DNA from: a virus
Strand: one strand, 5' to 3'
DNA length: 27,640 bases
IMG/VR virus record: IMGVR_UViG_3300021957_000233
Location: 1 to 27,640 of that record
Part shown: one piece after another, positions 1 through 19,663 of the stretch
Position numbering within the stretch: the first letter of the stretch is position 1
Layout of the letters: each line of letters starts with the position of its first letter
The notes under the pieces: model-generated
Database searches by the model: none
Told to the model about the DNA's origin: nothing
Seen by the model: the letters and a program-made list of their open reading frames with translations, nothing else
Position numbers and translations under genes: made by a program

Positions 1-94
1 TAGTGGAAGAGTCTTCTAGCATATACCTTACAGTAGCATATCTTATTCCCTGTTTATCCTCTTCATTAAAAGCCTTTAGTATTTCTTTCCACAT
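1..94 (-). CDS. Partial small protein with N-terminal Trp tag (5' end only)
   Basis: The first 31 codons of a gene that runs off the left edge of the window; translation starts MWKEILKAFNEEDK. The start ATG at 94 follows AAGGAGAG, a good Shine-Dalgarno sequence, and lies 2 bases after the stop of the upstream 33-residue gene, so it is translated as part of the same operon. The N-terminus carries the W-K-E-I-L-K motif shared with several other small genes here. The visible part is acidic and probably helical. Function is unknown. The start is well supported; length and fold cannot be judged. Confidence 0.75.
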   Translation of the reverse strand, partial: MWKEILKAFNEEDKQGIRYATVRYMLEDSST

Positions 95-96
95 AC

Positions 97-198
97 CTAT
101 CTCTCCTTTCTTTTGTAATGGGGTTTGTTAGGTCTAACCTTTTCGCTTTTTTGACTTGGTTCTCCCTTCCTGCGCCTTATTCTATTTTTCCTCTTCAT
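97..198 (-). CDS. Very small, highly basic protein (33 residues)
   Basis: A 33-residue reading frame starting MKRKNRIRRRKG and ending PHYKRKER. More than a third of its residues are Lys or Arg and there is no hydrophobic core, so it is probably disordered and nucleic-acid binding if expressed. The ATG at 198 follows AGGGATTA, a modest ribosome site, one base after the stop of the upstream gene and two bases before the next start. This spacing matches the tight packing of the operon and is the main reason to call it. A longer frame upstream of the ATG would overlap the preceding gene and is not used. It could be a minor DNA-condensing virion peptide or a chance frame. Confidence 0.5.
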   Translation of the reverse strand: MKRKNRIRRRKGEPSQKSEKVRPNKPHYKRKER

Positions 199-199
199 A

Positions 200-433
200 T
201 TAATCCCTATCTGTAAAGGCTCCTCTTGCTTTAGGCAAACCCTCAAGTAGAATATAATCACCGTTCTTATGTAGGGAAACCTTTTCCATCTCATTAAGTT
301 TCTCCTTGAGTTCTTTCTTAGAAAGACCTGTGGCTTTTTCTAGGGGTTCTAAACCTGAAGCACCACCTTCGTCTTTTAAGGTACGGATAATAATTGCTTC
401 TATGTTTTCTTTTAATATTTTTTTCCAATTCAT
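200..433 (-). CDS. Small winged-helix-like protein with N-terminal Trp tag
   Basis: A 77-residue protein. It starts MNWKKILKENIEAI, the Trp tag seen in several neighbours. Residues about 25-70 read like a small helix-turn-helix with a wing: a helix, then EKATGLSKKELKEKLNEMEK as a putative recognition region, then HKNGDYILLEG as a two-stranded wing. This is pattern reading, not a database match. The ATG at 433 follows AAGGTGA with a 7-base gap; an in-frame GTG at 442 lies inside this ribosome site and is therefore rejected. Likely a DNA-binding accessory protein; transcription factor or packaged DNA-binding protein are both possible. Confidence 0.72.
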   Translation of the reverse strand: MNWKKILKENIEAIIIRTLKDEGGASGLEPLEKATGLSKKELKEKLNEMEKVSLHKNGDYILLEGLPKARGAFTDRD

Positions 434-443
434 TTTATTCACC

Positions 444-797
444 TTAGTTTTTGGGTTTATCTGTATAAATATACAAATATGCTCCTGCTCCTGATGTTCT
501 TTTTACATCTTCTGTTTCATACATATTTCTTAAATATTGTCTAAGTGCAAATAAATGTTTTTCACGCTTCCTATTTAATTTTTGTTGAAAAGAAGTAGCC
601 TCCCTTCTCATCCCATTATCAATTAATATGCGTTTATAGGTTAATATCACATTAGGGTAAAATGAGTTTTTAAAATAACCGTCGCTATCAGGGGTCTTTA
701 AAGGACTAGGTACATCTGTTGTTTCTATAACTTGTCTTATTGCTTGTCTAAACAAATCACCATTTAATGTAGCCTTTATTATATTTTCCCACTTCAT
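444..797 (-). CDS. Small helical protein with N-terminal Trp tag
   Basis: A 117-residue protein of unknown function starting MKWENIIKATLNGDLF, with the Trp tag. The middle part (about residues 40-90) is rich in Lys, Arg and aromatic residues, including RKREKHLFALRQYLRNMY, which suggests an amphipathic basic helix that may touch nucleic acid. The C-terminus is AYLYIYTDKPKN. The ATG at 797 overlaps the stop of the upstream gene (ATGA) and follows GGGGGAAC, so the longer TTG start at 812 is not preferred. No known family is recognised. Its position in the run of tagged small genes after the head-tail adaptor suggests a late accessory or virion protein. Confidence 0.7.
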   Translation of the reverse strand: MKWENIIKATLNGDLFRQAIRQVIETTDVPSPLKTPDSDGYFKNSFYPNVILTYKRILIDNGMRREATSFQQKLNRKREKHLFALRQYLRNMYETEDVKRTSGAGAYLYIYTDKPKN

Positions 798-1021
798 TTT
801 TTGTTCCCCCAATTCTTTGCACCAACTTTTCTACATTGAACTAAAGCACCAGAAGCATAAGCCGAGGGCCACTTCTTATACCTAGAACGAACTTTGTAAT
901 AACAGGCATCTTTTTTACCTTTAGATTTACCACCCCTACGAGTCTTTTTCTTAGTCCTCTTAGAACCTTTCTTACGACGAGACTTACTTTTCTTTTGAAT
1001 AATGTCCCACCAAATGTCCAT
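794..1021 (-). CDS. Small basic protein with the KWPSAYASGALVxCRKVGAxNW motif
   Basis: A 75-residue protein. Residues 1-12 (MDIWWDIIQKKS) are a variant of the Trp tag; residues 12-37 are almost entirely Lys, Arg, Ser and Gly; residues 38-75 form a compact C-terminal motif with Cys40 and Cys63 around KWPSAYASGALVQCRKVGAK. From memory this C-terminal motif recurs in small proteins of marine phages and giant DNA viruses, annotated only as a domain of unknown function; I cannot verify the family number. The two cysteines could bind metal with other residues or form a disulfide. ATG at 1021 follows GAGGCGAT. A DNA-binding virion protein is a reasonable guess; it is not shown by the sequence. Confidence 0.75.
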   Translation of the reverse strand: MDIWWDIIQKKSKSRRKKGSKRTKKKTRRGGKSKGKKDACYYKVRSRYKKWPSAYASGALVQCRKVGAKNWGNKK

Positions 1022-2127: not shown

Positions 2128-4524
2128 TTATTCATCTCCCACAGATATTTTTAGTTTCAACAACTTCTTTAATATTTCGGTCTTTAACTTATTTTTCCCT
2201 ACATTAAAGGTACTTTGAAACCCTGATATAGTTTTACCTGACACGGTTTTATTTGTAGAACCCAATGTTGATGCACCCCTCTTTACAGAAAAATTTGTAG
2301 ATTTAGTACCAAGACTTATTCTAATCCCATGAGAAGCCTTAAAATCGTACTCGGCAGTTAATCCCTTCTTATCAAATTTATATTCTAAATTTAAATTACC
2401 TTTATATTGAATCATAGCCACTGAATTTTCTACTTGTTTTTCGGAGTTTTGTAAAGCAGTACCTTGTGTGTCGTCTTTATTGTTATTAACATCAATAAAC
2501 AAGTCTGCACCTATCAAGGGCCACAAAATCAATTTAACCAATTTTTCCTTATCTTCCTTACTCATAGATATTTCATCTTTCTTAAAATACTCTTGTAATA
2601 GGGCTGGTTTAAAGTTTGAAATTTTATTACCACCTTCTTGTGGGTAGTTAGTCTGTAACCAATCATCCCATTCATCTGCTGAAAGGGTATTAAAATCTAA
2701 CTCCCCCAACTTAGTACTTACTTCCCCTTCACCCTGTCTAACTAAAAAATTAACAGCAGATGATTTTAGTTCGTTAATATCCTCAACATCTGTTGTATAT
2801 TTTTTAACATTTTTAATAAAATCTGTTAATTCACTTTCTAGAACACTAGCGTTATCAATAAAATTTTCAGGTAATTCTTCAAAACCTAAAGCGTTTTGGT
2901 TTTTATTTAATATTTCATTAATTATGGGTGTAATGGTGTTTTCTACATATTCTAAAAACATTTCCTTATCACCATCAAGAATTAATTCCATCATTTCGGT
3001 TTCATATAATTGGGAGTAATTTATATTATCTTCATACCCACTAGTCATTTCTTCCCTAGATTGGGCTTTACCACCTTTGGTAATTCTTGTATATTCGTAT
3101 AACATATCTACAATTTCATTCAGTAAACCAGTTCCAGCAAAAGCCTCTTTTATTCTTTTAACTAAATCAAGTTGATTTTCTTTTTTATCTATTTCAATAG
3201 TTATTTTATCTAAATCTCCTATTTTTTTATCACTAGTTGAGTCTTTGATTTGTTTTTTTCCACTAAATGTTTTCTTAACACCCGGAGTTTGACCTAATGT
3301 TTCACTGTAATGTTTAACACCTCTAATTTTAGCAGGATTCCAGTCGTAAATATTAAAGGAATAATCAGTTTGATTATCTGATTCTAAGAATTTTTTAAAA
3401 CCTACTATTTCCTTTTCGTGATTTTCTAAAAAGTAATCAACCATTTCATCAATAGTTAAACTTAAGTCTCTTTTGCCTAATTTTCTAGTACCGTCATCTT
3501 CTAAGGGTGTAACCATTTCTGATGGTGGAGTGACTGTATTTAAATTAAAAAGTGTTTCTATTTCTTTATAGACCTCTCCTAACAAATTACTTTCATCAAT
3601 AGAAATACCTTGAAGTTGTTTAGGTACACCCTTTTGTTTTACCCATATTCCGTTGGTCACTAGTTTGTTTAATAAATTGTCAACAAATTGCTTACTATTA
3701 TAATTCAGTAAAGAAATTCTTTCTTTAGGTTCCATGTCATAAATTGCTTGAAGGTATTCTTCCACCGACATACCTCTATCAGACCTTTTTCTGTTTTCTG
3801 GTAATAGCAATTGTCCTTTTTGAAAACTTCGTAAGTAATCTTCCAAAGAAGTATTAGCCTCTTTTGGGTTGTAAATATAAGGCACAACCCCTTCCTTAAA
3901 CATTTTTAATGTGTTAATTAGTGATTCCTTTATACCATCAGTAACGGCTTTTTGTTGAATCCAAGCGTTGATTAATTCTAAACTTTCTGGGTCGGTATCA
4001 CCAAGACTAGTCCTTCCCTCTATGTCTTGTAATCTATTAAAAACCAAAACAGCCTTTTTACCGCTAGGGCTTAATTCCATAGTATCATTAATAAGCAATT
4101 CTCCAAATAATGCTTTATTAGATTCTGTATCTTCAACATCTAGAGCATAGTTTTGGGCAGTACCCTCCACTATGTCATTTAAAGTAAATTGTTTTTCACC
4201 CTCTTTGACTTGCATTAGTATGTCCAGTTCTTCTTCCCCTTTACCTGAATAAATAGTTTTATCTAATAATGGTTTAAAAACATCGGATTCAATGTTTTCC
4301 TTTAATACTTCAAGATAGGCGGCCTTATTAATTTTATCAAATTCCGCATCATCGTATCCTGTGAAACCTTCGTGGTTTTTTTGAATCCAATCAATTAATC
4401 TTTTATTAAGAGATGGTTCTGTGTTATTAATAAAATCTATCATAGTAGACTTAGATAAATCTTCTGTCCACTTTACCCCATCAGTAATGGGGGCATATTC
4501 TCTAATTCCGGGGACTCTTACCAT
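2128..4524 (-). CDS. Large unrecognised virion-module protein (798 residues)
   Basis: A 798-residue protein with no domain I recognise, no signal peptide and no membrane segment. Residues 1 to about 640 are mainly charged and helical, with many Asp, Glu, Lys and Asn. The last 120 residues differ: they begin DLFIDVNNNKDDTQG and continue with alternating hydrophobic stretches such as LNLEYKFDKKGLTAEYDFK, suggesting a C-terminal beta domain. Near the N-terminus VKWTEDLSKS is a weak echo of the Trp tag. The ATG at 4524 follows GGGGGTGA. It sits between decoration-type head genes and the head-tail adaptor, so a minor head or neck component or an internal (ejected) protein is plausible. An enzyme cannot be excluded. 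Confidence 0.7.
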   Translation of the reverse strand: MVRVPGIREYAPITDGVKWTEDLSKSTMIDFINNTEPSLNKRLIDWIQKNHEGFTGYDDAEFDKINKAAYLEVLKENIESDVFKPLLDKTIYSGKGEEELDILMQVKEGEKQFTLNDIVEGTAQNYALDVEDTESNKALFGELLINDTMELSPSGKKAVLVFNRLQDIEGRTSLGDTDPESLELINAWIQQKAVTDGIKESLINTLKMFKEGVVPYIYNPKEANTSLEDYLRSFQKGQLLLPENRKRSDRGMSVEEYLQAIYDMEPKERISLLNYNSKQFVDNLLNKLVTNGIWVKQKGVPKQLQGISIDESNLLGEVYKEIETLFNLNTVTPPSEMVTPLEDDGTRKLGKRDLSLTIDEMVDYFLENHEKEIVGFKKFLESDNQTDYSFNIYDWNPAKIRGVKHYSETLGQTPGVKKTFSGKKQIKDSTSDKKIGDLDKITIEIDKKENQLDLVKRIKEAFAGTGLLNEIVDMLYEYTRITKGGKAQSREEMTSGYEDNINYSQLYETEMMELILDGDKEMFLEYVENTITPIINEILNKNQNALGFEELPENFIDNASVLESELTDFIKNVKKYTTDVEDINELKSSAVNFLVRQGEGEVSTKLGELDFNTLSADEWDDWLQTNYPQEGGNKISNFKPALLQEYFKKDEISMSKEDKEKLVKLILWPLIGADLFIDVNNNKDDTQGTALQNSEKQVENSVAMIQYKGNLNLEYKFDKKGLTAEYDFKASHGIRISLGTKSTNFSVKRGASTLGSTNKTVSGKTISGFQSTFNVGKNKLKTEILKKLLKLKISVGDE

Positions 4525-4535
4525 AAATTCACCCC

Positions 4536-5009
4536 CTAGTTAGAAAGGGCGTAAATCTCTAGTGTGGTGAAATTATCAGCAATAATTTTAATTCCGTTCC
4601 TACAAATAATTCCTAAACCTCTAACATCATCACCTGTATTAGCGGCTACTAGAATTTTAGCAATTTGGTTATCGCCATCTATACAGGTTAAGGCTTGACC
4701 TACTTTGTTTCCACCTGTTGTAGAAACTGATAATTCAAAGTCCGTACCATTAGTTATAGAAACAATTGTGGCTCCTGCTGGAATACCATCTCCTGTAACA
4801 AACATACCTACCTTTAACAGTGCAGTATCTAATGTGACAATTGTGGGGTCGTTATTATAGTTTGATATGGCTACAACATCGTTACCGTTATTGTCAAACA
4901 CATTAATAACCGACGCAGTAGCACCGTTATAATATATCAGTCCGTCAAATGTTCCACCAATTGAAGACAATTGGGTATTACTCGTTAGTTTAGTTGAATT
5001 TACAGGCAT
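4536..5009 (-). CDS. Beta-rich head decoration-like protein
   Basis: A 157-residue protein made of Val, Thr, Gly and Asn-rich strands without charged helices, as in capsid decoration or fibre-type proteins. Residues about 55-100 contain VGMFVTGDGIPAGATIVSI followed by NGTDFELSVSTTGG; this 'G-M-x-V-x-G-x-G-I-P-x-G-T-x-I' module is common in phage structural proteins. The ATG at 5009 (MPVNSTKL) is chosen over the in-frame upstream ATG at 5036 because it has AGAGGGA before it and because the TATA box at 5047-5054 would start transcription near 5025, after the longer start. It is thus probably expressed from its own promoter as well as by read-through, fitting a protein needed in many copies. Confidence 0.72.
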   Translation of the reverse strand: MPVNSTKLTSNTQLSSIGGTFDGLIYYNGATASVINVFDNNGNDVVAISNYNNDPTIVTLDTALLKVGMFVTGDGIPAGATIVSITNGTDFELSVSTTGGNKVGQALTCIDGDNQIAKILVAANTGDDVRGLGIICRNGIKIIADNFTTLEIYALSN

Positions 5010-5046
5010 AGTTGGTTCCCTCTTAGTATAAACCAAGCAGGGCTAT

Positions 5047-5054
5047 GTTATAAA
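5047..5054 (-). promoter_or_regulatory. Archaeal-type TATA box for the decoration-like gene at 5009
   Basis: TTTATAAC on the minus strand inside TAATCTTTATAACATAGCC. The block TAATCTTTATA is identical to the one before the capsid operon at 8343, and TAGCC also follows in both. It lies in the 23-base gap after the 107-residue gene. Initiation about 25 bases downstream would give a short leader that still contains the AGAGGGA ribosome site of the gene starting at 5009. Seen in sequence; promoter activity is inferred. Confidence 0.5.
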
Positions 5055-5059
5055 GATTA

Positions 5060-5383
5060 CTACTCTTCTTCGCTTTCACAAAGGGAAAGTAAGGTAGATT
5101 TAGAATCTTTAAAGGCAAAACTAATACCTTGACTACGAAGGTAGGATTGTAATTCTCTCTTAGTCATAGATGAGAAATCAGGAGAAGATGAAGTATCATC
5201 AACCTCTGTTGAGTCTTCTAAGATTTCCTCAACAAGGGTTTCAACCTCTTCTTCTTCCAAAATTTCAAATCCATTTCTAATGAAAATATCACGCATTTCT
5301 TCGGAAACTTCATACTCATAATTACCTAAGTATGCTCTTCCAAATACTACCTTAGTACCACCTGTGATATTTTTAACTCTCAC
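5060..5383 (-). CDS. Small head-module protein with C-terminal SAP/HeH-like domain
   Basis: A 107-residue protein in three parts. Residues 1-42 are a small mixed domain with GGTKVVFGRAYLGNYEYEV; residues 43-68 are very acidic and Ser-rich, probably a flexible linker; residues 70-103 contain MTKRELQSYLRSQGI and KSTLLSLCESEE, which has the helix-extended loop-helix pattern of SAP, LEM or HeH domains. Such domains are common at the end of small phage proteins encoded beside the capsid gene. The start is GTG at 5383, supported by GAGGTGAT 5 bases upstream; an ATG start is absent. Likely a head-completion or capsid-associated protein that contacts DNA; the role is inferred from position. Confidence 0.68.
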   Translation of the reverse strand: MRVKNITGGTKVVFGRAYLGNYEYEVSEEMRDIFIRNGFEILEEEEVETLVEEILEDSTEVDDTSSSPDFSSMTKRELQSYLRSQGISFAFKDSKSTLLSLCESEEE

Positions 5384-5392
5384 AAAATCACC

Positions 5393-5992
5393 TCAAAGTA
5401 GACCGTATGCTCTAATTCTAAATGTACCAATGTCACCGTTCACAACAGCACCCGTTGAAAGAGTAGATGGCTCAAGAACCAAATATTCTCCATTAGCGGA
5501 AAGTGCGGCAGTTTCTTGAAACAAAGCACCCGTGGCGAGTAACTTAGTATTTAGTTGAACCAAGTTATTTTCCTGTCCCATAATTTCAATGTGGGTAAGT
5601 CGGGAAAGTCCCAAATCCGATGCAAGTAGGGAAAAGTTATTCCCAACAATAGTAATTTCATCATTAGTAGCATCTGCTCCAATATCGGAAACAACCATAG
5701 TGTCTGCACCGTCAATACTAACAATAGTAACTTCACCGTCATTTCCACCAGTAGCGGAAGAACCTAGTGTAATGGTACTTCCTACTGAATAAACCGTAGA
5801 TGCGTTAAGAGCAGTTCCAGATTTACGAAGAATCGTATTAGTAGCCGCAGTATAATCTACTGTTGTTGTTATAGACGCAGTAGCACCTAGAGTTACATTA
5901 AGAATACAATCAACATAGTAATAATGTCCTTGAACCTTTGGTGCAGTAGAACCTAGATGGTCTGCTATAAATGTAATTGCATTTAATCCCAT
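5393..5992 (-). CDS. Beta-rich capsid-associated protein next to the major capsid gene
   Basis: A 199-residue protein directly after the major capsid gene. It is dominated by short Thr/Ser/Ala/Gly/Val strands (ASITTTVDYTAATNTI, STVYSVGSTITLGSS) with few charges, and ends GDIGTFRIRAYGLL, as in proteins that sit on the capsid surface or form spikes. One cysteine (about residue 29) is present. ATG at 5992 has GAGGTG just upstream, and the gene begins 10 bases after the capsid gene stops, so it should be co-expressed with it. Decoration protein is the best guess; a tail-tube or fibre protein is an alternative. Confidence 0.65.
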   Translation of the reverse strand: MGLNAITFIADHLGSTAPKVQGHYYYVDCILNVTLGATASITTTVDYTAATNTILRKSGTALNASTVYSVGSTITLGSSATGGNDGEVTIVSIDGADTMVVSDIGADATNDEITIVGNNFSLLASDLGLSRLTHIEIMGQENNLVQLNTKLLATGALFQETAALSANGEYLVLEPSTLSTGAVVNGDIGTFRIRAYGLL

Positions 5993-6002
5993 TTATAACA
6001 CC

Positions 6003-7211
6003 TCATTGTAGGTCTAGGATTTTACCTTGACCACGGAAGTAAGTACAAACAGTTTCAGCAACAGTACGGTAAAGTCCTCGGTGTCCGAGTTTCCCATGTC
6101 CGAAAACATCAGCATTAATTCCACCTTCAAAGTATTCAGTAGGCTTCAATGTGCAAAGGAACAAGTTATCAGTATCTAGAATTAGCATATCCGAAATTCC
6201 TGCTCCTCCGTTAGGCATATCCTTAACAGGGATAATAGGGATATCGTGATAAGTAGCAACACGGAATCCCATTTCTCTTCCTTCAACACCCTTAATACCA
6301 TTGTGGGAAGGAGTAATTTCTGTTCTTCCCATAAAGCGTTCTTGTGCTTGAAGCAATTCTCCCAAAGTTTGAATAGTATCGTATCCTGTTAGAATAACCT
6401 TTGGTTGTCCACCACGAGCCATTAGGTTACGAAGTGCAGTGTTCAAAAGATTAACAGTAAGATTTCTTTCAGTACCACTGTTTGAATCAACATAGGATTC
6501 AAGGTATGGTGTGTTAGAAGTATGTCGGACTTGTCCGAACAAATCATTCTTTGAGGTTAAAGTACCCAAAGCATCAGTTTCAGCGAAGGTTGCAATAATC
6601 TTATAAAGAGTCATAAGTGAGTTATCAGCCTTTGTAGCGTGAGCATCAATACCCGTTCCAGCAACATTGGTTAAGTCCTGCAAAATCATTTTGTTCATAG
6701 ATTCAGCGTGGGAAATACCTACTTCTTCTCGGTAGTTAGCAATCAAGTCACCGATACCATCATCAAGTCCACCCATCAATTGAGCAACTTCTGAAATTTC
6801 AAAAGTGTGTGCAACAGTCTTAGGGGAAACATGAAGGTTTTTATAAACAGGCTTAACATTTGTAATACCTGAAAGTGCTGCATTCTCAGCAGTACCACCC
6901 AAATCGTCAAGGTCACTTACTGTGAAAGTATCTGCGGTTCCACCAATGGCTCTCTCCGACATAATTCTCCATCCACTAGACTTCCAAGGTTTCTTAGGAA
7001 GAATAGACAAAGCATTAATTTCACGGTTAATCATAGACCAAACTTTCTGTCCATAAACTAAATTATGAAGAGATGTATCTCCACCGGGAGTTGCTAAAGC
7101 GTGTCCTGCATGAATACCAGTAGTTGCGCCGGTTGCTTTTAGTAAGTTATCGCCACCTAATCCATAGGTTGCTCGCTCCAAATCTCCAATTGTCTTAAAA
7201 TATCCTGTCAT
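6003..7211 (-). CDS. Major capsid protein, HK97-fold type
   Basis: A 402-residue protein that should form the icosahedral shell. It follows the prohead protease/scaffold gene and precedes small beta-rich head genes, the classical order, and its length and composition fit the family. Visible points: a helical N-terminus MTGYFKTIGDLERATYG; SLHNLVYGQKVWSMINREIN; a central helical region RNLMARGGQPKVILTGYDTI typical of the axial domain; and an acidic to neutral end GLYRTVAETVCTYFRGQGKI. No long delta domain is seen before the fold, consistent with a separate scaffold. The ATG at 7211 is chosen because GAGGGGG lies 9 bases upstream; the longer in-frame start at 7256 would overlap the scaffold by 44 bases and has no ribosome site. 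Confidence 0.85.
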   Translation of the reverse strand: MTGYFKTIGDLERATYGLGGDNLLKATGATTGIHAGHALATPGGDTSLHNLVYGQKVWSMINREINALSILPKKPWKSSGWRIMSERAIGGTADTFTVSDLDDLGGTAENAALSGITNVKPVYKNLHVSPKTVAHTFEISEVAQLMGGLDDGIGDLIANYREEVGISHAESMNKMILQDLTNVAGTGIDAHATKADNSLMTLYKIIATFAETDALGTLTSKNDLFGQVRHTSNTPYLESYVDSNSGTERNLTVNLLNTALRNLMARGGQPKVILTGYDTIQTLGELLQAQERFMGRTEITPSHNGIKGVEGREMGFRVATYHDIPIIPVKDMPNGGAGISDMLILDTDNLFLCTLKPTEYFEGGINADVFGHGKLGHRGLYRTVAETVCTYFRGQGKILDLQ

Positions 7212-7212
7212 C

Positions 7213-7806
7213 TTAAATACCCCCCTCATGATTTGAGAAAAGACTGTGGACTTCATCCCAGTTCATTTCACCAATTCGGGAAAAGTTTTCACTAAGTCGT
7301 TGAGTAGTTTCCTCAACAGATTGTGCCTTAGCGATATCGTTATTTTCCATACTCTTCTTTAGTGAAGTTAATTCTTCACGGAGTTGGGAAAGTTCATCTT
7401 GTGCATTAAAATTTGACTTAGCAATTTCATGCTTTTCAATTTCTAATTCCTTTGCGTAGCGAGATTCAAATTGAGACTTAACTAAATCGTATGCTCTCTC
7501 TTCTTGCTTTTCTGCTCGGAAACTCTCGTATGCCTTTTCTAGATTACTAGGAGAAAGGTCTAGAGTTTCTACACCCTTTTGCTCCATGTATTCTAGGTTT
7601 TCCATTTCCAAGTCCTCTTCAGCATCTTGGTAATCTTCCATTTCCATTTCGTCTTCTGTTCCACCACGAAGGGATTTCATCTCTTCGTCTTGTGGGGCTT
7701 CTTCCATCTTATCTGTATCGTCGTCGTCATCCTTCAACAAAACTGATGTTTTCAGTTCAGCCATTACTTCGTTAAATTCGGCTAATGCCTTTTCTATTTC
7801 ACTCAT
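7213..7806 (-). CDS. Nested scaffolding protein from an internal in-frame start
   Basis: A 197-residue product starting MSEIEKALAEFNEV at codon 180 of the protease gene. The internal ATG has AAGGAGGA 7 bases upstream, the strongest ribosome site in this part of the window and far better than that of the full-length protein, which has none. Lambda C/Nu3 uses the same arrangement to make much more scaffold than protease. The product is acidic in its first half and coiled-coil in its second (EKQEERAYDLVKSQFESRY, then SQLREELTSLKKSMENNDI). The last 20 residues carry the W-D-E motif and likely bind the capsid protein. Confidence 0.75.
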   Translation of the reverse strand: MSEIEKALAEFNEVMAELKTSVLLKDDDDDTDKMEEAPQDEEMKSLRGGTEDEMEMEDYQDAEEDLEMENLEYMEQKGVETLDLSPSNLEKAYESFRAEKQEERAYDLVKSQFESRYAKELEIEKHEIAKSNFNAQDELSQLREELTSLKKSMENNDIAKAQSVEETTQRLSENFSRIGEMNWDEVHSLFSNHEGGI

Positions 7807-8343
7807 TTTTTTGTCCTCCTTAATTATATTAAACTTGGCTTCGGGATTAATCCCTTCTTCACAAATTGTGATTTCATGCAATTCTAACTTATCAATTTCT
7901 TTATAACTCCCAATATCGGGGTCATACTTATTTGCCTTGTTAATTGCTTGTCCTCCAATTGAAAAGGAACGAAGTTTTCCACGACGAATATCTCGTGAAA
8001 CCTCCTTTGCCTTTTCTATATCATTTCTTAACTTTATCACTACAAAAAAACCTGTATCATCTACGCCTGTTTTAAGGACTTTTCCTTTGGAATCCTTATA
8101 TGTATCTAATACCTCTCCAACTTGAACATTGGAATGGGTAATCATTACATTTCTAAAGCGGTCATTCTTCATAAATCCATCAGCCGCTTCTCTAATTGCG
8201 TTAAGAGTAATCTTGTCATTTTGCTTATCCACTACATCAACAGATGCGTAGCCAGCAATAACACATTCATTATTTTCCTTAAGAATGACAAACTCTCCCC
8301 CATCAGTAGGAGTATTGCCGAACATAGGAGTCCTTAACTGCAT
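7213..8343 (-). CDS. HK97-family prohead protease fused to scaffold
   Basis: A 376-residue protein. Residues 10 to about 175 are a caudovirus prohead protease: the candidate catalytic His70 lies in VMITHSN and the Ser is 126 or 128 in KLRSFSIGG, with LELHEITICEEGINPEA closing the domain. The protease matures the prohead by cutting scaffold and other assembly proteins. Residues 180-376 are a scaffold: an acidic stretch (DDDDD near 202, then repeated Glu/Met), a long coiled coil, and a C-terminal peptide GEMNWDEVHSLFSNHEG that probably docks on the capsid protein. An internal start at codon 180 allows scaffold to be made alone. The ATG at 8343 has no ribosome site but a TATA box 27 bases before it, so the transcript is probably leaderless. 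Confidence 0.85.
   Translation of the reverse strand: MQLRTPMFGNTPTDGGEFVILKENNECVIAGYASVDVVDKQNDKITLNAIREAADGFMKNDRFRNVMITHSNVQVGEVLDTYKDSKGKVLKTGVDDTGFFVVIKLRNDIEKAKEVSRDIRRGKLRSFSIGGQAINKANKYDPDIGSYKEIDKLELHEITICEEGINPEAKFNIIKEDKKMSEIEKALAEFNEVMAELKTSVLLKDDDDDTDKMEEAPQDEEMKSLRGGTEDEMEMEDYQDAEEDLEMENLEYMEQKGVETLDLSPSNLEKAYESFRAEKQEERAYDLVKSQFESRYAKELEIEKHEIAKSNFNAQDELSQLREELTSLKKSMENNDIAKAQSVEETTQRLSENFSRIGEMNWDEVHSLFSNHEGGI
7814..7821 (-). promoter_or_regulatory. Internal Shine-Dalgarno site for the nested scaffold
   Basis: AAGGAGGA on the minus strand, 7 bases before the ATG at 7806, inside the protease coding sequence. The codons used there read I-I-K-E-D-K-K, so the site lies in the linker between protease and scaffold, where sequence is free to vary. 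This decides the internal start. Confidence 0.75.
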
Positions 8344-8399: not shown

Positions 8400-10481
8400 T
8401 CACAGTTTGATATATTTATCTCCTCTAGCATCAATTAAACCATCATCCGATGATTCGGGAGTAGGTTTAGTTTCGTAACCCGTCCAAGCCAACCACATTT
8501 TTTCTTTCTTTACAGGGAGATACCTAATATGTATTTTTGATTGAATGTCTTTACCACTAAGAATGTATTCATGATATCCATGTCTTTGTGCGCCTAACAT
8601 AAGATTACCCTTATCAATTAACATATCATCGTTGATTTGTGAAACTAAACTAACTGGATATTTTCCGGCTTCCCCTAAGAAGTCATAGATATTATCTTTT
8701 GATTCAATATCTACTTTCCAGTTATTTTCAAAATCTTTATGTTTAATTGTAAAATAAATATTCTCATCCTTACCCAACCAAAGTAAAAACTCAGCAACTT
8801 TTTCTTCCATTTTGACAATTAATTTTTCATCATGGTAAAATCTGTCCCTACCCTTAATACCGTAAGCATCACCCATTCTCATAAGTCTAGATTTCATTTT
8901 ACCCATGCCGTTTTTTTCTCCAAAAAGGCGATTAATTAAATCTTCGTCATGTTTTATTGCTAGTCTGTAAATATCTTCTAGAGACTTAGTACCGTTTGAA
9001 ATTAAAATGTTTTGCACAAAGGTCATAAATCTACCATTGTCCTTACCGTATGCTCTTTTAATTTCCTTCTTCCAAACTTCCATGTCAGGATAGGCATTTT
9101 TAGCCATTAGATTCTTCTCCTTAAATCCGTGAAAAATTAAACCGTCCATGTTTAGTTCTAAATCCATTTTAGCAATTCCATGTATTGAGTCTGTTATAGT
9201 GTAGGATTTTTTAAGTGCCTCTACCTTGTAGTCTTTAAGACTCTTACGACCATTTTTGGTTAAAAATTCTAGAGTTATTAACTTATCCGATTCTGTAACT
9301 TCTGGTATTTCGTGAAATTTAGCATTGTATAAGGAGTAGCCTTTCTTAGCATTACCCATAACTTCGTCAACTTTAACCCTAATAATTTTACCCTCATCTA
9401 AATTAACTTTAGTATTTGTGGTCTTACCTATTTCTGCGTAAAATTCTCCATTGTGTTCTTTTACTTTAGGAGTGTCTTCATTAACAGGCCCAATACCTAA
9501 AGTGTATGTATATGATTTATTTTTATTGGTTCTTTTAGATAAAATATATACATCTAAGTCAATAATTTTTTTCCATTTAATCCACTTAGGATTTTTTTTC
9601 TTACCTATAACATAAGACGATTTAGCATCTTTAATAACAACTCCCTCGGAGGTAGGATTATTCATAATCTCCATAGCATATTCTTCAATTTCTTGATAGT
9701 TGTCTGCATCTCTAGTATTCTTTTTATTAGGGAATAGAATAATATCATTAGTTAGTGCCGTAAATTCACTAATTAAAACCTTTAATCTATCCTCTAGTTT
9801 TTCCATAGCAACACTTTCTTTGTCGTAAGAAATAATATCAAAAATATGAATTTTAATATCACCCTCTCCTTCAACCTTTTTATTGATATGTGCTAATGTA
9901 TCTGCTCGTACTAGTGGTTCATCTCCTTGATACAAAACGGCTTCACCATCAAGAATACAATCCTTGACCTTTTCCTTGTTTAAGTAATCTACACACTTAG
10001 AAAATTTAGAAGTAATATCGTTACCGTTAAAGGAATAAACCTTTACACTGTCTCCCTCTTTATGTACTTGAACTCTTAAACCATCATACTTTTCTTGTAT
10101 AATAAATTCACCAGTCATTCCCTTAATTTCTCTTAAGTCTTCAATATCAAAAATCCTATACATAGGTTTATTGGGGGTAATAAACCCTGTTCTTTTTTCT
10201 TCTTTAATGAGAGATGGTTTTTCTATAATAGTGCTATATAGTTTTTTAGCATTATTTTGTGTAACATCTAATGTTTTATCCGAATGCAGTATGCCTGTTT
10301 CTAAATTAGGGAATAACTGTTGATATTCGGGTTCCTTTAAAAGGTTCCTTAATTCAATCACTAATTTTTCCCATTCGTAGTCATATGCTTTGGGGTTCTC
10401 AACAGCAGATAAATAGGTTGCCCTAATTTTATTTGTTAAAGATACTCTATTTTTAGCAATAGAGAAATTATTACCAAACAT
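8400..10481 (-). CDS. ATP-dependent DNA ligase with long C-terminal extension
   Basis: A 693-residue protein that should seal DNA nicks using ATP. Motif I is EKYDGLR with the adenylated Lys at about 131; LDGEAV lies near 177-182, FDIISYD (motif III) near 214-220, SEGVVIKD (motif IV) near 278-285 and KWIKWKK (motif V) near 299-305, followed by an OB-fold region to about 410. The N-terminal part before motif I is only about 130 residues, shorter than the full DNA-binding domain of archaeal replicative ligases. Some 280 further residues follow with no domain I recognise; they include RFLGEKN-type basic helices and a C-terminal KIHIRYLPVKKEKMWLAWTG. ATG at 10481 is preferred; GTG at 10490 overlaps the previous stop. 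Its place inside the head module is unusual for a ligase. Confidence 0.88.
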   Translation of the reverse strand: MFGNNFSIAKNRVSLTNKIRATYLSAVENPKAYDYEWEKLVIELRNLLKEPEYQQLFPNLETGILHSDKTLDVTQNNAKKLYSTIIEKPSLIKEEKRTGFITPNKPMYRIFDIEDLREIKGMTGEFIIQEKYDGLRVQVHKEGDSVKVYSFNGNDITSKFSKCVDYLNKEKVKDCILDGEAVLYQGDEPLVRADTLAHINKKVEGEGDIKIHIFDIISYDKESVAMEKLEDRLKVLISEFTALTNDIILFPNKKNTRDADNYQEIEEYAMEIMNNPTSEGVVIKDAKSSYVIGKKKNPKWIKWKKIIDLDVYILSKRTNKNKSYTYTLGIGPVNEDTPKVKEHNGEFYAEIGKTTNTKVNLDEGKIIRVKVDEVMGNAKKGYSLYNAKFHEIPEVTESDKLITLEFLTKNGRKSLKDYKVEALKKSYTITDSIHGIAKMDLELNMDGLIFHGFKEKNLMAKNAYPDMEVWKKEIKRAYGKDNGRFMTFVQNILISNGTKSLEDIYRLAIKHDEDLINRLFGEKNGMGKMKSRLMRMGDAYGIKGRDRFYHDEKLIVKMEEKVAEFLLWLGKDENIYFTIKHKDFENNWKVDIESKDNIYDFLGEAGKYPVSLVSQINDDMLIDKGNLMLGAQRHGYHEYILSGKDIQSKIHIRYLPVKKEKMWLAWTGYETKPTPESSDDGLIDARGDKYIKL

Positions 10482-10486
10482 ATTTC

Positions 10487-10918
10487 TCACGCTTCATCCG
10501 AGGGAGTAAAGGCGGCTTCTTCACTAACTCTTAAAGTATGTTTATAGCGGCGTAGTTTTTCAAGTGCAGTTTCTAAAGCCGCTTCTAAATCCTTATCTTG
10601 TGAATCTTCTGGTACTTCGGTACTCTCACTTCTAGGTTCACCACGGTCTTCTTCCTCACTTTTATAAAACATGTGTTCTGGTAATAATTTAATATTACGA
10701 CTCTTCTTAACTTCTTGAACACTACTGACTGTTGCTTTTGCGGCCATTCTCATCACATCTTTGGGAACAGGTTTAATAGGCTTGTAGGGTTTAACTTCCC
10801 CCGTTTGAGCCATAATACCCAAAGCATTACTAATGATTGATTCTAATTCAGTTAATCTTGTTAAGAGCATCCTACTATCTCTAAGGTCTTGCTCCGGTTC
10901 TTCGTCTACCATACTCAT
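10487..10918 (-). CDS. Small acidic coiled-coil protein of the head module
   Basis: A 143-residue protein of unknown function starting MSMVDEEPEQDL. Residues 12-40 (LRDSRMLLTRLTELESIISN) and 105-130 (DLEAALETALEKLRRYKHTL) look helical and could form coiled coils; between them is a Pro/Lys stretch VKPYKPIKPVPKD and an acidic, Ser-rich part. The ATG at 10918 overlaps the preceding stop (ATGA) and follows GGAGGGGAC, which is why the longer frame starting at 10963 is rejected. Placed between the 74-residue coiled-coil protein and the ligase, it may be a small assembly factor; nothing more can be said. Confidence 0.68.
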   Translation of the reverse strand: MSMVDEEPEQDLRDSRMLLTRLTELESIISNALGIMAQTGEVKPYKPIKPVPKDVMRMAAKATVSSVQEVKKSRNIKLLPEHMFYKSEEEDRGEPRSESTEVPEDSQDKDLEAALETALEKLRRYKHTLRVSEEAAFTPSDEA

Positions 10919-11139
10919 ATTGTCCCCTCCATTTTTCCTACTAATTCGTTTAATTCGTCCCAATCCATCTTAGCGATAGTATCTCCATCGGGAATATGAC
11001 TTGTAGTTTCCATTGAAGGGCGGGGTGTATGTACCACCATGCCCGACTTAATTAAAGCCATACTTGATTCATTCATTTTTCTTTCCAGTGTTTCTACTTT
11101 GCTAACTAGCATTTTGATAATATCTATTAATTCTTCCAT
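10915..11139 (-). CDS. 74-residue coiled-coil protein with a scaffold-like C-terminus
   Basis: Residues 1-27 (MEELIDIIKMLVSKVETLER) form a heptad-like helix, probably a dimer or trimer coiled coil; residues 30-52 are a Pro/Thr/Ser linker; residues 55-74 are AKMDWDELNELVGKMEGTI. This ending resembles that of the scaffold (EMNWDEVHSLFSNHEGGI), which suggests that both bind the same partner, perhaps the capsid protein or portal. The final E-G codons in each case also provide the Shine-Dalgarno of the next gene, so that part of the likeness may have another cause. ATG at 11139 overlaps the upstream stop (TAATG). A small secondary scaffold or portal-nucleating factor is possible. Confidence 0.7.
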   Translation of the reverse strand: MEELIDIIKMLVSKVETLERKMNESSMALIKSGMVVHTPRPSMETTSHIPDGDTIAKMDWDELNELVGKMEGTI

Positions 11140-13055
11140 TATTCTTCCTCTCCATAAACCATTCCGTATATGTCTTGGTATAAGTTTTCATATCGTTTCC
11201 TTAGATGGGCTAGTTTTTTGATTAATTTAAGGTTCTCCTCGTCTAATCCCTCTAACTGACCCTCTTCGGATGAATCTACTATATCGCCCAATGTATTTAT
11301 AAGTTTTGTTAGTTTAAGATATTCTTCACCGAAAAATTCTGTTGGTTCAGCGTCTTGTAGGAATGTTTTAATTCTTCTCCTATCGTCTTCGGGTAGTTCC
11401 GAAACTTCCATTTTGAAAAGTTCTGGGTCAAGTTCAACATTTGAATCAAATTGACCGCCGTGGACGAGCCTCTTTTTATTAATCCAACCGATAATTTCTT
11501 CCTTTGAACCAATTTTTACACCCGCCACAAGAGGGTTAACTTCCAATTTTTCTCCTGAATATATTGGGGAACTGAATTGATTAATATTTCTAATAATAGG
11601 TTTACTAGTCCACTCTATTACATCTTTCCTAACATATCTTCTGAGTCTTTCCTCGGCTTCTGTTGTGTCGTTAAACATACTACCATCAAAGTAATAACTT
11701 ACGGGTTTATCCAATTGTTCTCCAAACATCTCAGCGTCAAAATAAATCTCGTTATCATCTGTTGTCCTCAAATATCTATCCACTAGTTTAGTAGCGATTT
11801 CTTTAAATTTTTCGCTTTCGTTAATAACCTTTTCGCCTAATTTTTTGTAGTCTCCCTCACTCAATTTAGCCGTTTTTTCTAAACTATAAGGACTATCCCC
11901 TTGGTAATTTTTATCTAAAATACTTTGAATTTTATTTGGTTTTAGGGTTCCACCCCCATAATCTCTCGTAACAACACGCACCTTTTCCCCTTTAGTGTTC
12001 CTAAAAATATAAAGAATGTAATTATCTATTTTAGGCTTTTGTGGTGACCTATCCACCGAATCATCAGGTTTCTTATCAAAGAATGAATCATCTTCTTGGT
12101 TTAAAGAATATTCTCTATCTTCTTCACTAACCTCAAGTAGCGACTTTAAACCCTTTTTTCTGACCATTACTCTTCTAATCCACCATCCGTATGTTTTACT
12201 CGTTGATGAATTAGAAACCTTTTCTTCTAATTGGTTTTCAAAATCACTTCCTTCTAAGAATAATTTTCCTAGATTTTCTATTTTATAACCCTGTTTTAAA
12301 TCTTCATAAATAGCATCAACCGTTTCGTTTGTAGGGACTTTACCTATGGGTATATTTTTTCGTATAATTCTCTTCACACTTTCCCAATTCTTCTTTAATT
12401 TTTCAATAGAACCTTCTTCTGTTAAGGTATTGAGTACTTGCGCTCTACCTTTATTATCCGTAGATGATTCGTATTGGTCTACAAATTCATTTAATCTTAC
12501 CATAAATTCTTGCTTATTAGAAACAGTTAATACACTAATTTCAAACGGTAGGCGAGATTTTATTTGATTAAATAATTCATTTAACTCTTTAGTATAAGCA
12601 CCGGATTGAATTAAGTCTTTTAGTTTTGATATAGAAACATATAGTCGGTTATCATTATCAGCGTTAAATAATTTATCAGTTAAATATGTTCTCATGGAGG
12701 GGTGAATATCCTCCGTACCAATAGTATTATTTGGTACAAAAACGATACTCTTTTTATTAGTACCTATTGAAAATGAACCCCCCCTTACTAACCTAGTATA
12801 AGGTTTCAATCTATCAATTAATTTTAGTATATTAGATGTGTTTTTTAGATTAGGTATATTTTTACTAATCCAAGTTTTAGTTTTACTGTCTAAAAGAGTT
12901 GAATTAATGGTCTCTCTCTCCTTCATAGGTTTATCTAAATTGCGTTGATACTTTATAGCCTCCGCTAAAGTGGCGTTAATTGTTCTGTTATCATTAATTC
13001 CTCTACTAAAAAGATATCTTTTTAATTTATAATTAGGTGTAAGTCCGTTAACCAT
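11139..13055 (-). CDS. Large unrecognised virion-module protein (638 residues)
   Basis: A 638-residue soluble, highly charged protein without a family I recognise. Lys, Glu, Asp and Asn dominate; no transmembrane segment, signal peptide or cysteine-rich motif is apparent. The last 60 residues (EGLDEENLKLIKKLAHLRKR and following) form a likely long C-terminal coiled coil. The N-terminus MVNGLTPNYKLKRYLFSRG is basic. ATG at 13055 follows AGGTGATAAA, a clear ribosome site. It shares its make-up with the 1130-, 810-, 798- and 524-residue proteins of this window and may belong to the same structural set (neck, internal or tail-tip proteins), but no sequence repeat linking them is visible by eye. 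Confidence 0.68.
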   Translation of the reverse strand: MVNGLTPNYKLKRYLFSRGINDNRTINATLAEAIKYQRNLDKPMKERETINSTLLDSKTKTWISKNIPNLKNTSNILKLIDRLKPYTRLVRGGSFSIGTNKKSIVFVPNNTIGTEDIHPSMRTYLTDKLFNADNDNRLYVSISKLKDLIQSGAYTKELNELFNQIKSRLPFEISVLTVSNKQEFMVRLNEFVDQYESSTDNKGRAQVLNTLTEEGSIEKLKKNWESVKRIIRKNIPIGKVPTNETVDAIYEDLKQGYKIENLGKLFLEGSDFENQLEEKVSNSSTSKTYGWWIRRVMVRKKGLKSLLEVSEEDREYSLNQEDDSFFDKKPDDSVDRSPQKPKIDNYILYIFRNTKGEKVRVVTRDYGGGTLKPNKIQSILDKNYQGDSPYSLEKTAKLSEGDYKKLGEKVINESEKFKEIATKLVDRYLRTTDDNEIYFDAEMFGEQLDKPVSYYFDGSMFNDTTEAEERLRRYVRKDVIEWTSKPIIRNINQFSSPIYSGEKLEVNPLVAGVKIGSKEEIIGWINKKRLVHGGQFDSNVELDPELFKMEVSELPEDDRRRIKTFLQDAEPTEFFGEEYLKLTKLINTLGDIVDSSEEGQLEGLDEENLKLIKKLAHLRKRYENLYQDIYGMVYGEEE

Positions 13056-16635: not shown

Positions 16636-18281
16636 CAAGGTATCCTCCTTTCTGTACGGCTATCTACATTATTATTTCCTGCATCTTTAGGTAGACCACC
16701 AAATCTTTTAGGTGGGCCTGTTTCCATACTAGGTTTATTTCTAGTTTGAGTTTCTCCTGCTACTTGGGCCTTAGTATTACCAGTCATTAAGGCTTCTTCT
16801 TGAAGTTGCCCTAACTGTGATGCGTCAATATTTGTTCCCGCATAGGGGTCTACTTCTAACATCTCACCCTCATTACTATCTAACTCAACATCAATTAATT
16901 CCTTAGCGGGGAATTTCTTAAAGACGAAATCTCCATCTTCGTTCATATCAACCTCAAAGCCAAGATTTTTCATTTGAACCGCTAGATTAATTTCCATTTC
17001 CCTTCTTCTCATATCAGCCATTTCATCTTCTTCCTCGCTTCTAAGTAGTTGAACCTTCCAATCAGTGATACCGAATTGTTTCATTAGGAATGGGAATAGA
17101 TATTTATTGTAGACATTTTGAGCGTGTTCAACTGCACGATTAGTAACTAGTATCTGCATACCTTCGTTGTTTAGACCTCCACCCGTTGTAGTATCTCCAG
17201 TGAATACATTACTCACACCATAGAAGGAAGAAATACGAGTACGCAAATCATCTTTAACATTTATGTAGTCCATTTCCTTAATAGTATTTGTGAAAGAAAC
17301 CCATTCAACAGTCTTTCCTCCACTGTCACTTTCAATACCCATAATAGGTACATAGTGGGGGTCACGCTCTAACTTTTCCTTCACACCTTTCCAATACTTT
17401 ACTAATGATTCCATGTTATTTGTTTGTACTGCTAAAATTCCTCTAGGGGTTCTAGCCTTTGTGTAGAGAGTGCTGATGTAGTTTTCCATAGCAGATAAAG
17501 TAAATACATGATTAAAAAGTGTTAAAACTGGAGGATGGCCGTACAATCTTGACGGGGAGTATTTACTAAAATGTACTACCTCACCCATAATATAGTTTTG
17601 TTCATCCTTACCAGATTTATTAGTAAATTCAATGGGGTGAAGTGAGCAACCACAAATACCACATTTATCGTATTTATCCTCACTGATATAGTCCCTGTGG
17701 GTAATGCATGTAAATCTAGAATATCCTCTGTCTCCTTCATTATCAACTTCAATGTGCATTATTGTTGGGTCGCCTCTATAAATTTCATTAATTTTAGACA
17801 TAATAATTTCTCCCTTCTTGTCTAAATAATAATCCTTTACTAAAATTAAATAAGCATCATCTACAATGTTTAAATCCATCTCAACTTCCTTTAACACATC
17901 AATAAATAATTGGTGGGAAGAATTAATGTATCCTTCAAAAAAGTCATGTGCGTATAATTTTTGAGCCAATTCAGGTCTTCTTAAATCAGTACCTCCACAA
18001 TTATTACATTCATCAACATCTCTATGGTGTTCATGCCCACAAGAATTACACTTCTTATCAAAAGCCTTAATCCATTCGTAGCCTCTTCTAAATATTTCTG
18101 TTTTCAATTGGACTAAAACAGTTCTCATTACTGTGGAATTTTCAGCGGTTTGGAAAAGATATTTACCTGCGTAGTGTTGGGGCATTCTTCTTTCGTTAAT
18201 ACCCATGTTATAAACATCATCTTGAACAGGGGTAGGGGTTCTTCTTCTTATTAAATTTCTTAGACTATCTCTTAATCCCAT
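16635..18281 (-). CDS. Portal protein with two zinc-binding insertions
   Basis: A 548-residue portal, the dodecameric ring through which DNA is packaged and ejected. Support: position just after terminase, length, YGHPPVLTLFNHVFTLSAMENYISTLYTK-type helices near 247-275 (only part quoted), DDLRTRISSFYGVSNVFTGD near 350 with the typical 'F-G-V-x' motif, and a Pro/Gly-rich disordered end. Unusually, C78-x2-C81-x10-C92-x2-C95 forms a zinc ribbon-like unit, and C192-x2-H195-x11-C207-x2-C210 a second one, both in the wing region ahead of the helical stem. These may stabilise the ring or contact DNA or a partner. ATG at 18281 follows AAGGAGGATTAA, 2 bases after the LAGLIDADG gene. Confidence 0.85.
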   Translation of the reverse strand: MGLRDSLRNLIRRRTPTPVQDDVYNMGINERRMPQHYAGKYLFQTAENSTVMRTVLVQLKTEIFRRGYEWIKAFDKKCNSCGHEHHRDVDECNNCGGTDLRRPELAQKLYAHDFFEGYINSSHQLFIDVLKEVEMDLNIVDDAYLILVKDYYLDKKGEIIMSKINEIYRGDPTIMHIEVDNEGDRGYSRFTCITHRDYISEDKYDKCGICGCSLHPIEFTNKSGKDEQNYIMGEVVHFSKYSPSRLYGHPPVLTLFNHVFTLSAMENYISTLYTKARTPRGILAVQTNNMESLVKYWKGVKEKLERDPHYVPIMGIESDSGGKTVEWVSFTNTIKEMDYINVKDDLRTRISSFYGVSNVFTGDTTTGGGLNNEGMQILVTNRAVEHAQNVYNKYLFPFLMKQFGITDWKVQLLRSEEEDEMADMRRREMEINLAVQMKNLGFEVDMNEDGDFVFKKFPAKELIDVELDSNEGEMLEVDPYAGTNIDASQLGQLQEEALMTGNTKAQVAGETQTRNKPSMETGPPKRFGGLPKDAGNNNVDSRTERRIP

Positions 18282-18283
18282 AT

Positions 18284-19663
18284 TTAATCCTCCTTAACGA
18301 TTGAGTCCACTTCGTTCATCAAGTCCCACTTACTGTTTTCCTTGTATTTGATAATATCTTCTTCTTGTATATTATACTTCTGCAATTCATCCTTATTTAC
18401 TGCATCCTTCCAATTTTCCCATTTTATGAGTTTAAAAATTTCTTCAAGACGAGGTTTGGCCCATGCTTCTTTTTTGAATCGTTGTTTAATCATAATGGAT
18501 TCCATTAGAAGTCTTCCCTGTTCCTTTTTCATTCTCAAATGGGGAATGGTCTTCACCAATAATTTATTAATATCACCTTGACTATAAAAATTTAACCTAT
18601 GTTGGCTACGACTATTTTCACCTACCTTTTGGTCTAAATGTAGGCGACCAATCTTCAATTGATTTTCCATTTCCTTAAAGAAAGCCTTACCTCTATCACC
18701 CGTAGCAATCATACCTACTCTAGGTGCGTATTTTGAATCCATAGTAATATAACCATCGGAGTCAATAAATCCAGCCACATAAGAATACAAATCCTTTTTG
18801 ATAGCATCACTAAAGATGTAATACTCTCCGTCTACATTTATAGCATCAACCTTTCTAAGCATTTTTGAAATAGTTTGAGGTGTAGTAGAACGGTGGTATG
18901 TACTAGGAAGTAAAGAATGAATTGTGTTACTAGTAATTCCGGGATTATTACAAATAGTCTTAACCAACATATCTTCAAGAACCTGTTGTCTTGGCTTACG
19001 GATAGATTGGTGAGATATTTCCTTCAAGATAGATTTAATGTTTTTCTTAGATTCCTTGAATTTAGCAACCTCTGAAGAATATTCTTGACCGTAGGATAGA
19101 CTAGATTTTTCTAAATTAGCCTCCCACATCTTCACTAGGTTATCAATAATTACTTGACGGGTTTCTCCATCTTTAATGTAGTGGAGTTTCTTCATCATAG
19201 AAATATTAGGGGTGAGCATTCTAACCGACTTCTTAAAGGGTCGGAGCCAATAAACACTATCTAAACAGTTATCTAAATGCTCGGTGTAGGCTTTGATTAA
19301 ATGGTCAATGGTTGATGACATTTTATCTCTAGCATTACCCTTTAGGGTTCTTCTCATGCGTCTTAAATCCTTTACAACATCAGGAATAGTTTTATCCTCA
19401 ATGAGTAGTTCTTCGGGCATCTTAGAAATATATTCCCTTGCTTGGGTGTAGTTGATTGATAGGTTAGAAGAAATGTCTTTTATTACCTCAGTTTCATCAT
19501 GACACTGATAAGAAAGCCAAGACAACATAACAGAATCAGTGTTGGTGGTTTGTCTGATTTTGTTTTCTACTTCTTGTTTTTCCTTTTTCTTTTCTTCTAG
19601 TTCTTGTAGTTGAGTTCTAAGTTCTTCTGTATTTATCTCTTCTTCTTTAATAATTAATTCCAT
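18284..19663 (-). CDS. Winged-helix plus LAGLIDADG endonuclease-like protein between terminase and portal
   Basis: A 459-residue protein. Residues 1-40 are a coiled coil; 40-225 are helical and basic; 228-285 read as a winged helix (VKTICNNPGITSNTIHSLLP, then TPQTISKMLRKVDAINVDGE with a YYIF strand); 293-395 are one LAGLIDADG unit with VAGFIDSDGYITM at 296-308, where Asp301 or Asp303 would bind metal. With one motif it would have to dimerise to cut DNA. The end has KWENWKDAV and KWDLMNEVDSIV. The gene has its own AGGAGG site and overlaps the terminase stop by 17 bases, so it is not an intein. It might be a free-standing homing endonuclease, or a domesticated DNA-binding protein that acts as small terminase; the long conserved-looking N-terminal part favours the latter. 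Confidence 0.78.
   Translation of the reverse strand: MELIIKEEEINTEELRTQLQELEEKKKEKQEVENKIRQTTNTDSVMLSWLSYQCHDETEVIKDISSNLSINYTQAREYISKMPEELLIEDKTIPDVVKDLRRMRRTLKGNARDKMSSTIDHLIKAYTEHLDNCLDSVYWLRPFKKSVRMLTPNISMMKKLHYIKDGETRQVIIDNLVKMWEANLEKSSLSYGQEYSSEVAKFKESKKNIKSILKEISHQSIRKPRQQVLEDMLVKTICNNPGITSNTIHSLLPSTYHRSTTPQTISKMLRKVDAINVDGEYYIFSDAIKKDLYSYVAGFIDSDGYITMDSKYAPRVGMIATGDRGKAFFKEMENQLKIGRLHLDQKVGENSRSQHRLNFYSQGDINKLLVKTIPHLRMKKEQGRLLMESIMIKQRFKKEAWAKPRLEEIFKLIKWENWKDAVNKDELQKYNIQEEDIIKYKENSKWDLMNEVDSIVKED

Follow-up and report, generated by a model that had tools for sequence, protein, structure and literature searches.

The genes at one end of a virus contig raise the question of why consecutive small genes encoding dissimilar proteins should open with nearly the same short peptide. 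Four such genes, starting at 94, 433, 797 and 1021 of the window (the whole stretch of DNA analysed, 27.6 kb or 27,640 nucleotides of the late-gene region), begin with MWKEILK, MNWKKILK, MKWENIIK and MDIWWDIIQK, respectively, and all lie on the minus strand. The preliminary description of the locus was right about these starts and about the dissimilarity of the four bodies that follow them. Its mention of a fixed first ten residues has to be replaced by a core of six to eight residues, W-x-x-[IV]-[LI]-K, in which the tryptophan is found 1–5 residues past the initiator.

The virus and its relatives

The minus strand of the window encodes a terminase, a portal, an S78 prohead protease and an SU10-type major capsid protein, together with many unnamed late genes. 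Most relatives found in the viral collection have identities of 42–100%, and six of the relatives are contigs of 87–94 kb, whilst the capsid protein is 26–27% identical to those of the haloviruses HCTV-1 and HVTV-1 (Druskaviridae). G001, the sole 87–94 kb relative inspected for this purpose, has genes for a family B polymerase (PolB) and a chaperonin (cpn60) on the opposite strand. These features match the published family profile of the magroviruses, which comprises genomes of 90–100 kb, GroEL, PolB, two opposed gene clusters and kinship with the Druskaviridae (PMC10768690), and because of this match the window is taken to fit a magrovirus-like virus, a member of the Caudoviricetes of marine archaea. 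Genes were called throughout as simple open reading frames, and all of the evidence is sequence-based. To our knowledge no magrovirus has been brought into culture, and hence data on the virion proteome, on docking and on cleavage are absent for these viruses.

Between the terminase and the portal there is an open reading frame at 18284–19663 (minus strand) with no Pfam match at E 0.001. It contains an AGFIDSDGYI stretch that hints at a LAGLIDADG homing endonuclease or a relative of one, and frames of similar size occupy the same place in G001 and G003.

A tag at the start of unrelated late proteins

The shared N-terminal tag is confirmed and is far more widespread than first reported. Among the 987 genes called in the window and eight longer relatives, 122 have a product that opens with M-x(0-4)-W-[EKQ]-[DNE]-[IV]-[LI]-K, the consensus being M-[SNGT]-W-[EKQ]-[DNE]-[IV]-[LI]-K, or roughly M-S-W-E-D-I-L-K, and the late proteins that open with it are unrelated. 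The lysine is present in 116 of the 122 tags. Each of the six contigs of 87–94 kb contains 10–22 tagged genes and two shorter contigs contain 12 and 16; by the same criterion the window has five, with a sixth, that starting at 94, cut by the window edge. The core is found at the N-terminus of 118 of the 987 genes, against a mean of 1.45 and a maximum of 5 in 200 shuffles of residues 2–21 in the nine records, and within the same records it follows only one of 5,016 internal methionines. The preliminary description had proposed asking whether the matches of a tag profile cluster at protein N-termini. At 13 bits or more there are 112 N-terminal, nine internal and no C-terminal matches, with tenfold more internal positions available.

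All but one of the tagged genes (121 of 122, p 5.7e-36) lie on the strand of the capsid gene, which is termed the late strand here in the absence of expression-timing data. They are mostly clustered, either adjoining the terminase block or between the head-completion and tail genes, and the essential head and tail genes are mostly without a tag.

Within the window, where the tagged genes are all on the minus strand, the gene cut by the edge (1–94) carries its tag at 74–94 and has relatives that start MWKNILK. It is followed by a gene with a winged-helix body (200–433, tag at 410–433), by one with no body relatives detectable here (444–797, tag at 774–797) and by one with a basic KKDACYYKVRSRYKKWPSAYASGALVQCRKVG body matching PHROG 727 and 38880 (794–1021, tag at 992–1021). 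Two extra tagged genes, starting at 27113 and 27447, were found at the other end of the window, namely 26358–27113, with MVSNWFNILK at 27084–27113, and 27103–27447, with MTWKDILK at 27424–27447.

Selection on the peptide and modularity of the tag

Synonymous differences within the tag occur as often as expected in the codons for isoleucine (0.546 observed versus 0.558 expected), leucine (0.727 versus 0.721) and lysine (0.438 versus 0.444). Since these codons vary freely, selection acts on the peptide and not on the DNA. The position at gene starts, along with the codons at W+1 and W+2, which are less varied than expected (0.172 versus 0.357 and 0.303 versus 0.396), could point to a nucleic-acid element, such as a translation enhancer, a transcription signal or a recombination linker, with the resemblance of the encoded peptides being incidental. 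This is very improbable, however, as the isoleucine, leucine and lysine codons are as free as elsewhere, the distance from the start to the tryptophan differs by up to four codons, and two proteins have the core at the C-terminus as well. A DNA element was rejected on the codon variation.

When the first residues are removed, the 122 tagged proteins fall into 66 sequence clusters. Absence of the tag from homologues would have refuted the preliminary description, yet a tryptophan-based tag is present in 32 of 32 distinct magrovirus homologues of the 794–1021 body, of which 25 fit W-x-x-[IVLAM] and seven have the variant WFEELK/WEETLK. Homologues of the 200–433 protein likewise keep the tag, though an EF-hand-like insert between it and the winged helix comes and goes. 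Cyanophage proteins that share the 794–1021 body are without the tag, and the gene at 11139–13055, untagged in the window, has tagged counterparts in G002, in G003 and in a more distant lineage. On these comparisons the tag is modular relative to the bodies that it precedes. Common descent, in which the tagged genes would be a single expanded family with bodies diverged beyond recognition, draws on the fact that some tagged clusters are paralogous within one genome, as in G008. It is scarcely credible, given that the bodies make up 66 clusters and include winged-helix, EF-hand and basic DUF5872-type proteins, that the cyanophage homologues are untagged and that the gene at 11139–13055 has the tag only in certain lineages; a paralogous family was rejected on the clustering of the bodies.

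Copies of the motif are also seen away from chain starts. The gene before the terminase (21062–22129, minus strand) has an internal KKAWDILK at residues about 195–205, which may be another use of the motif, and the equivalent stretch lies elsewhere in the chain in relatives, as a MKKAWGILK start in G003 and near the C-terminus in G002. A strong tag match is found mid-chain in the products of G002 17904–18941, G002 81650–82513 and G004 51202–51666, some of which have one at the start as well; from their sequences, these proteins look like two tagged genes fused.

The proteins behind the tag

According to the preliminary description, two of the four bodies were basic or DNA-binding-like. The 200–433 protein is predicted to be a winged helix: its AlphaFold model has a pLDDT of about 81 over the body and below 50 at residues 1–6, and the best structure matches are Z-alpha-type and transcription-factor winged helices with middling scores, such that only the general fold is claimed. 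The basic trend is no more than mild across the tagged proteins, with a pI above 9 in 38% of them versus 25% of untagged late proteins, and basicity as a defining property of the bodies was rejected for that reason. When 105 tagged proteins were scanned against Pfam and PHROG, few functions emerged, these being DUF5754, DUF5872, EF-hands, one PAP2 match and a weak metallopeptidase match.

The KKDACYYKVRSRYKKWPSAYASGALVQCRKVGAKNWGN module of the 794–1021 protein (minus strand) is found at up to 89% identity in many T4-like cyanophages, an unusually high degree of sharing between archaeal and cyanobacterial viruses. In S-RIM8 and S-SCSM1 the gene after the cyanophage homologue starts MKSYNEFISES or MKTFKQFMSES, which we take to resemble the capsid-targeting sequence (CTS) of phage T4. 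The S-SCSM1 gene that has the 794–1021 body is annotated as a ‘virion protein’, and the virion of this phage has been analysed by mass spectrometry (PMC9602691). With no magrovirus virion proteome to consult, this annotation and the CTS-like start of the following cyanophage gene give indirect hints at a virion location for the tagged proteins.

A matching core on the protease-scaffold protein

The prohead protease of the window (7213–8343, minus strand) is an S78 peptidase fused through an acidic linker to a coiled-coil-like scaffold. The assignment is supported by Pfam PF04586 (E 6.6e-11; 43.1 bits against a curated cut-off of 21 for the Peptidase_S78 profile) and by a PHROG match to head maturation protease. 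Its C-terminus bears a copy of the putative docking core, MNWDEVHSLFSNHEGGI, at 7216–7266 (minus strand), and upstream of this lies a putative protease site, I337-A-K339 (7327–7335, minus strand), at which cleavage is inferred. Among 26 homologues I337 is conserved in at least 90% and K339 is invariant, and M360 and W362, both within the docking core, are the sole invariant residues past K339. The predicted structure has long helices at 265–355 and a separate short helix at 362–372, with a pLDDT of 48.5 that is too weak for a fold search.

The second carrier of the core is a coiled-coil-like protein of 74 amino acids (10915–11139, minus strand), which ends in ...TIAKMDWDELNELVGKMEGTI and has the core at 10918–10968. 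The C-terminal search pattern, M-x-W-[polar]-x-[ILVAM], has internal matches at 3 of 162,250 positions. In the nine records the C-terminal core M-[SDNT]-W-x-x-[ILVA] is confined to two kinds of protein, the protease-scaffold and the 74-residue family, and is always 16–17 residues from the end; for G007 only the protease-scaffold was found. The 56 C-terminal copies have the consensus [IV]-[AS]-[KEN]-M-[SD]-W-[DSN]-[ED]-[ILA] and are without the leucine and lysine of the tag, having H, N or D at W+4, so that only M-x-W-x-x-I is common to the two. In both the tag and the C-terminal copy the residue before the tryptophan is often of a helix N-cap type (S, D, T or N) and acids then follow, from which each is inferred to open a short capped helix that has the tryptophan and isoleucine on one face.

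An ATP-dependent DNA ligase (PF01068, E 5e-31) is encoded at 8400–10490 (minus strand), within the head-gene module and just upstream of the protease-scaffold gene. Genes of the same size (696–705 aa) are located at this position in G001 and G003.

The capsid protein and a putative maturation site

The major capsid protein (6003–7256, minus strand) is SU10-type and belongs to the HK97 fold family (PF17236, E 6.2e-10; PHROG 24667). Its N-terminal stretch includes L38-L39-K40 (7137–7145, minus strand) followed by A41, and this is inferred to be a putative maturation cut. The pattern [ILV][LMS]K[ASG], most often LLKA, is present in 41 of 41 capsid proteins within an otherwise gap-rich, variable N-terminal stretch; across all residues, only 0.04% are the first of an [IL][LM]K[ASG] match. 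The sequence of HK97 gp5 has K103-S104, its established maturation cut site. The I-L-K of the tag has the same hydrophobic-hydrophobic-lysine pattern as the capsid protein site. Whereas the capsid protein always has A, S or G after this lysine, the residue in that position is variable in the tags, and a search for a conserved cut motif farther downstream gave none, W+6 to W+11 all varying.

Distribution beyond the group

A tag equally frequent in unrelated genomes would also have told against the preliminary description. The pattern M-x-W-E-D-I-L-K was found in at least 120 stretches of the viral collection versus nine for a peptide with these residues in scrambled order, and among the matches listed 83 of the 93 read are at gene starts, versus 2 of 9 for the scrambled peptide. 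The source contigs, again among the matches listed, have in 37 of 50 cases a terminase 52–77% identical to that of the window, and two more have a related polymerase. Those with neither are mostly short. Three exceed 50 kb, of which G068 and G073 have matches that are never at gene starts and G049 (59.7 kb) has a gene-start match. In prokaryote genomes (257 Gb; one genome for each of 84,980 species) there are 66 matching stretches, only 13 of them gene-start-like; these 13 belong to unrelated proteins, with four making up one DHVE2 archaeal family. Neither motif was found in the late genes of HCTV-1 or at the C-terminus of its protease, and the tag is therefore not common to the wider group that includes the haloviruses. 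On present sequence comparisons the tag appears specific to this virus group.

Two of the contigs have peculiarities of their own. G041 (IMGVR_UViG_3300021958_000021, locus L112; 184.7 kb) has two terminase genes 90.5 kb apart and is probably two genomes joined in assembly. In G067, the contig of locus L151, PolB is in pieces at 2853–6261 with an in-frame TGA, for which a frameshift, an intein and an assembly error are alternatives.

A probable capsid-targeting sequence

It is likely, in line with the prohead-loading tag inferred in the preliminary description, that the tag is a capsid-targeting sequence, formed of the docking-helix core also seen on the scaffold and then a lysine-type protease site, where loading, docking and cleavage are each inferred from sequence. 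Loading into the prohead has independent support in that the protease-scaffold carries the M-x-W core near its C-terminus and in that I-L-K matches the capsid protein site. The peptide may instead dock to some other late partner, such as the tail, the terminase, the host membrane or a host factor, as it can form an amphipathic helix, its partner has not been identified and some tagged genes are near the terminase block or past the tail genes. That reading is considered unlikely, for outside the tags the core is restricted to the protease-scaffold and the 74-residue protein, which belong to the head module, and a partner elsewhere does not fit with the resemblance of I-L-K to a conserved capsid protein site.

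The capsid-targeting model starts from the observation that the tag is on many late proteins and that the same core is on the scaffold tail. The tryptophan/isoleucine face of the short N-capped helix would dock each cargo protein in the assembling prohead at the receptor used by the scaffold tail, for which the inner face of the capsid protein and the portal are candidates, and by this means the cargo would be carried inside. The S78 protease would then cut after lysine in the tags, the capsid protein and the scaffold, freeing the cargo from the shell to stay with the DNA and probably to enter the next host cell alongside it. In the consensus numbering W3 and I6 are candidate residues for docking, and I6-L7-K8 for cutting.

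It is possible, if somewhat doubtful, that the tag targets proteins without being cut, I-L-K being just part of the docking helix, which is a variant compatible with the first half of this model. The variable residue after the lysine and the want of any cleavage data leave room for an uncut tag. Against it, the lysine is almost always kept in the tags and missing from the C-terminal copies, as expected if docking needs the tryptophan and isoleucine and cutting needs the lysine, and the lysine motif also matches that of the capsid protein.

A broader proposal, which we regard as evenly balanced between right and wrong, is that the probable capsid-targeting sequence amounts to a general cargo-loading code of magroviruses. 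One docking peptide would serve both as the tail of the protease-scaffold and as the front of 10–22 cargo proteins per virus, a built-in I-x-K cut would free them all at maturation, and the virion would deliver a large, exchangeable set of proteins into the archaeal cell. If the capsid-targeting reading is right, sequence alone would show which proteins are carried in the particle in a widespread and large group of ocean viruses that has not been cultured. These include dozens of families of unknown function, which would be candidates for taking over the host or countering its defences in marine archaea. A single short peptide, testable by mutation, would then combine targeting with scaffold docking and proteolysis, and the tag could serve for loading chosen proteins into heads.

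Comparison with known systems

No earlier report of the tag motif was found in the literature, within open-licence papers, and we know of no capsid-targeting sequence for any archaeal virus, nor of an N-terminal cargo tag in the herpesvirus UL26/UL26.5 system. The T4 CTS, which ends in glutamate, is like the magrovirus tag a short N-terminal peptide on otherwise unrelated and variable proteins (IPI–III and Alt). It is conserved across a diverse cargo set (PMC3012670); its first 10 residues suffice for targeting, which depends mainly on residues 4 and 7, and processing is at residues 8 and 10 (PMC9026906), the targeting residues thus being spaced by three and the processing residues adjoining, as are the candidate residues in the tag. 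Unlike the T4 CTS, the magrovirus tag is W-x-x-I-L-K and lysine-ended, belongs to an archaeal virus group with an S78 protease, has 10–22 carriers per 87–94 kb contig and has a matching C-terminal copy on the protease-scaffold.

In phage P1 a segment of DarB directs a heterologous reporter to the capsid, interpreted by analogy with T4 (PMC9024508), but that signal has been described for one protein and is not an eight-residue tag on many genes. The giant phage SPN3US has propeptides at the N-termini of head and ejection proteins, and one at the C-terminus of its prohead protease has been proposed to target the enzyme into the core (PMC7411985); in contrast to the magrovirus tag, the propeptides are long (111–130 residues in several proteins) and have another cut motif. 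Finally, in herpesviruses the UL26/UL26.5 arrangement has a protease fused to a scaffold and a second protein with the same C-terminal end that is needed for shell formation (PMC12474303), although here, unlike in the magroviruses, the second protein is the scaffold itself, produced from a nested gene.
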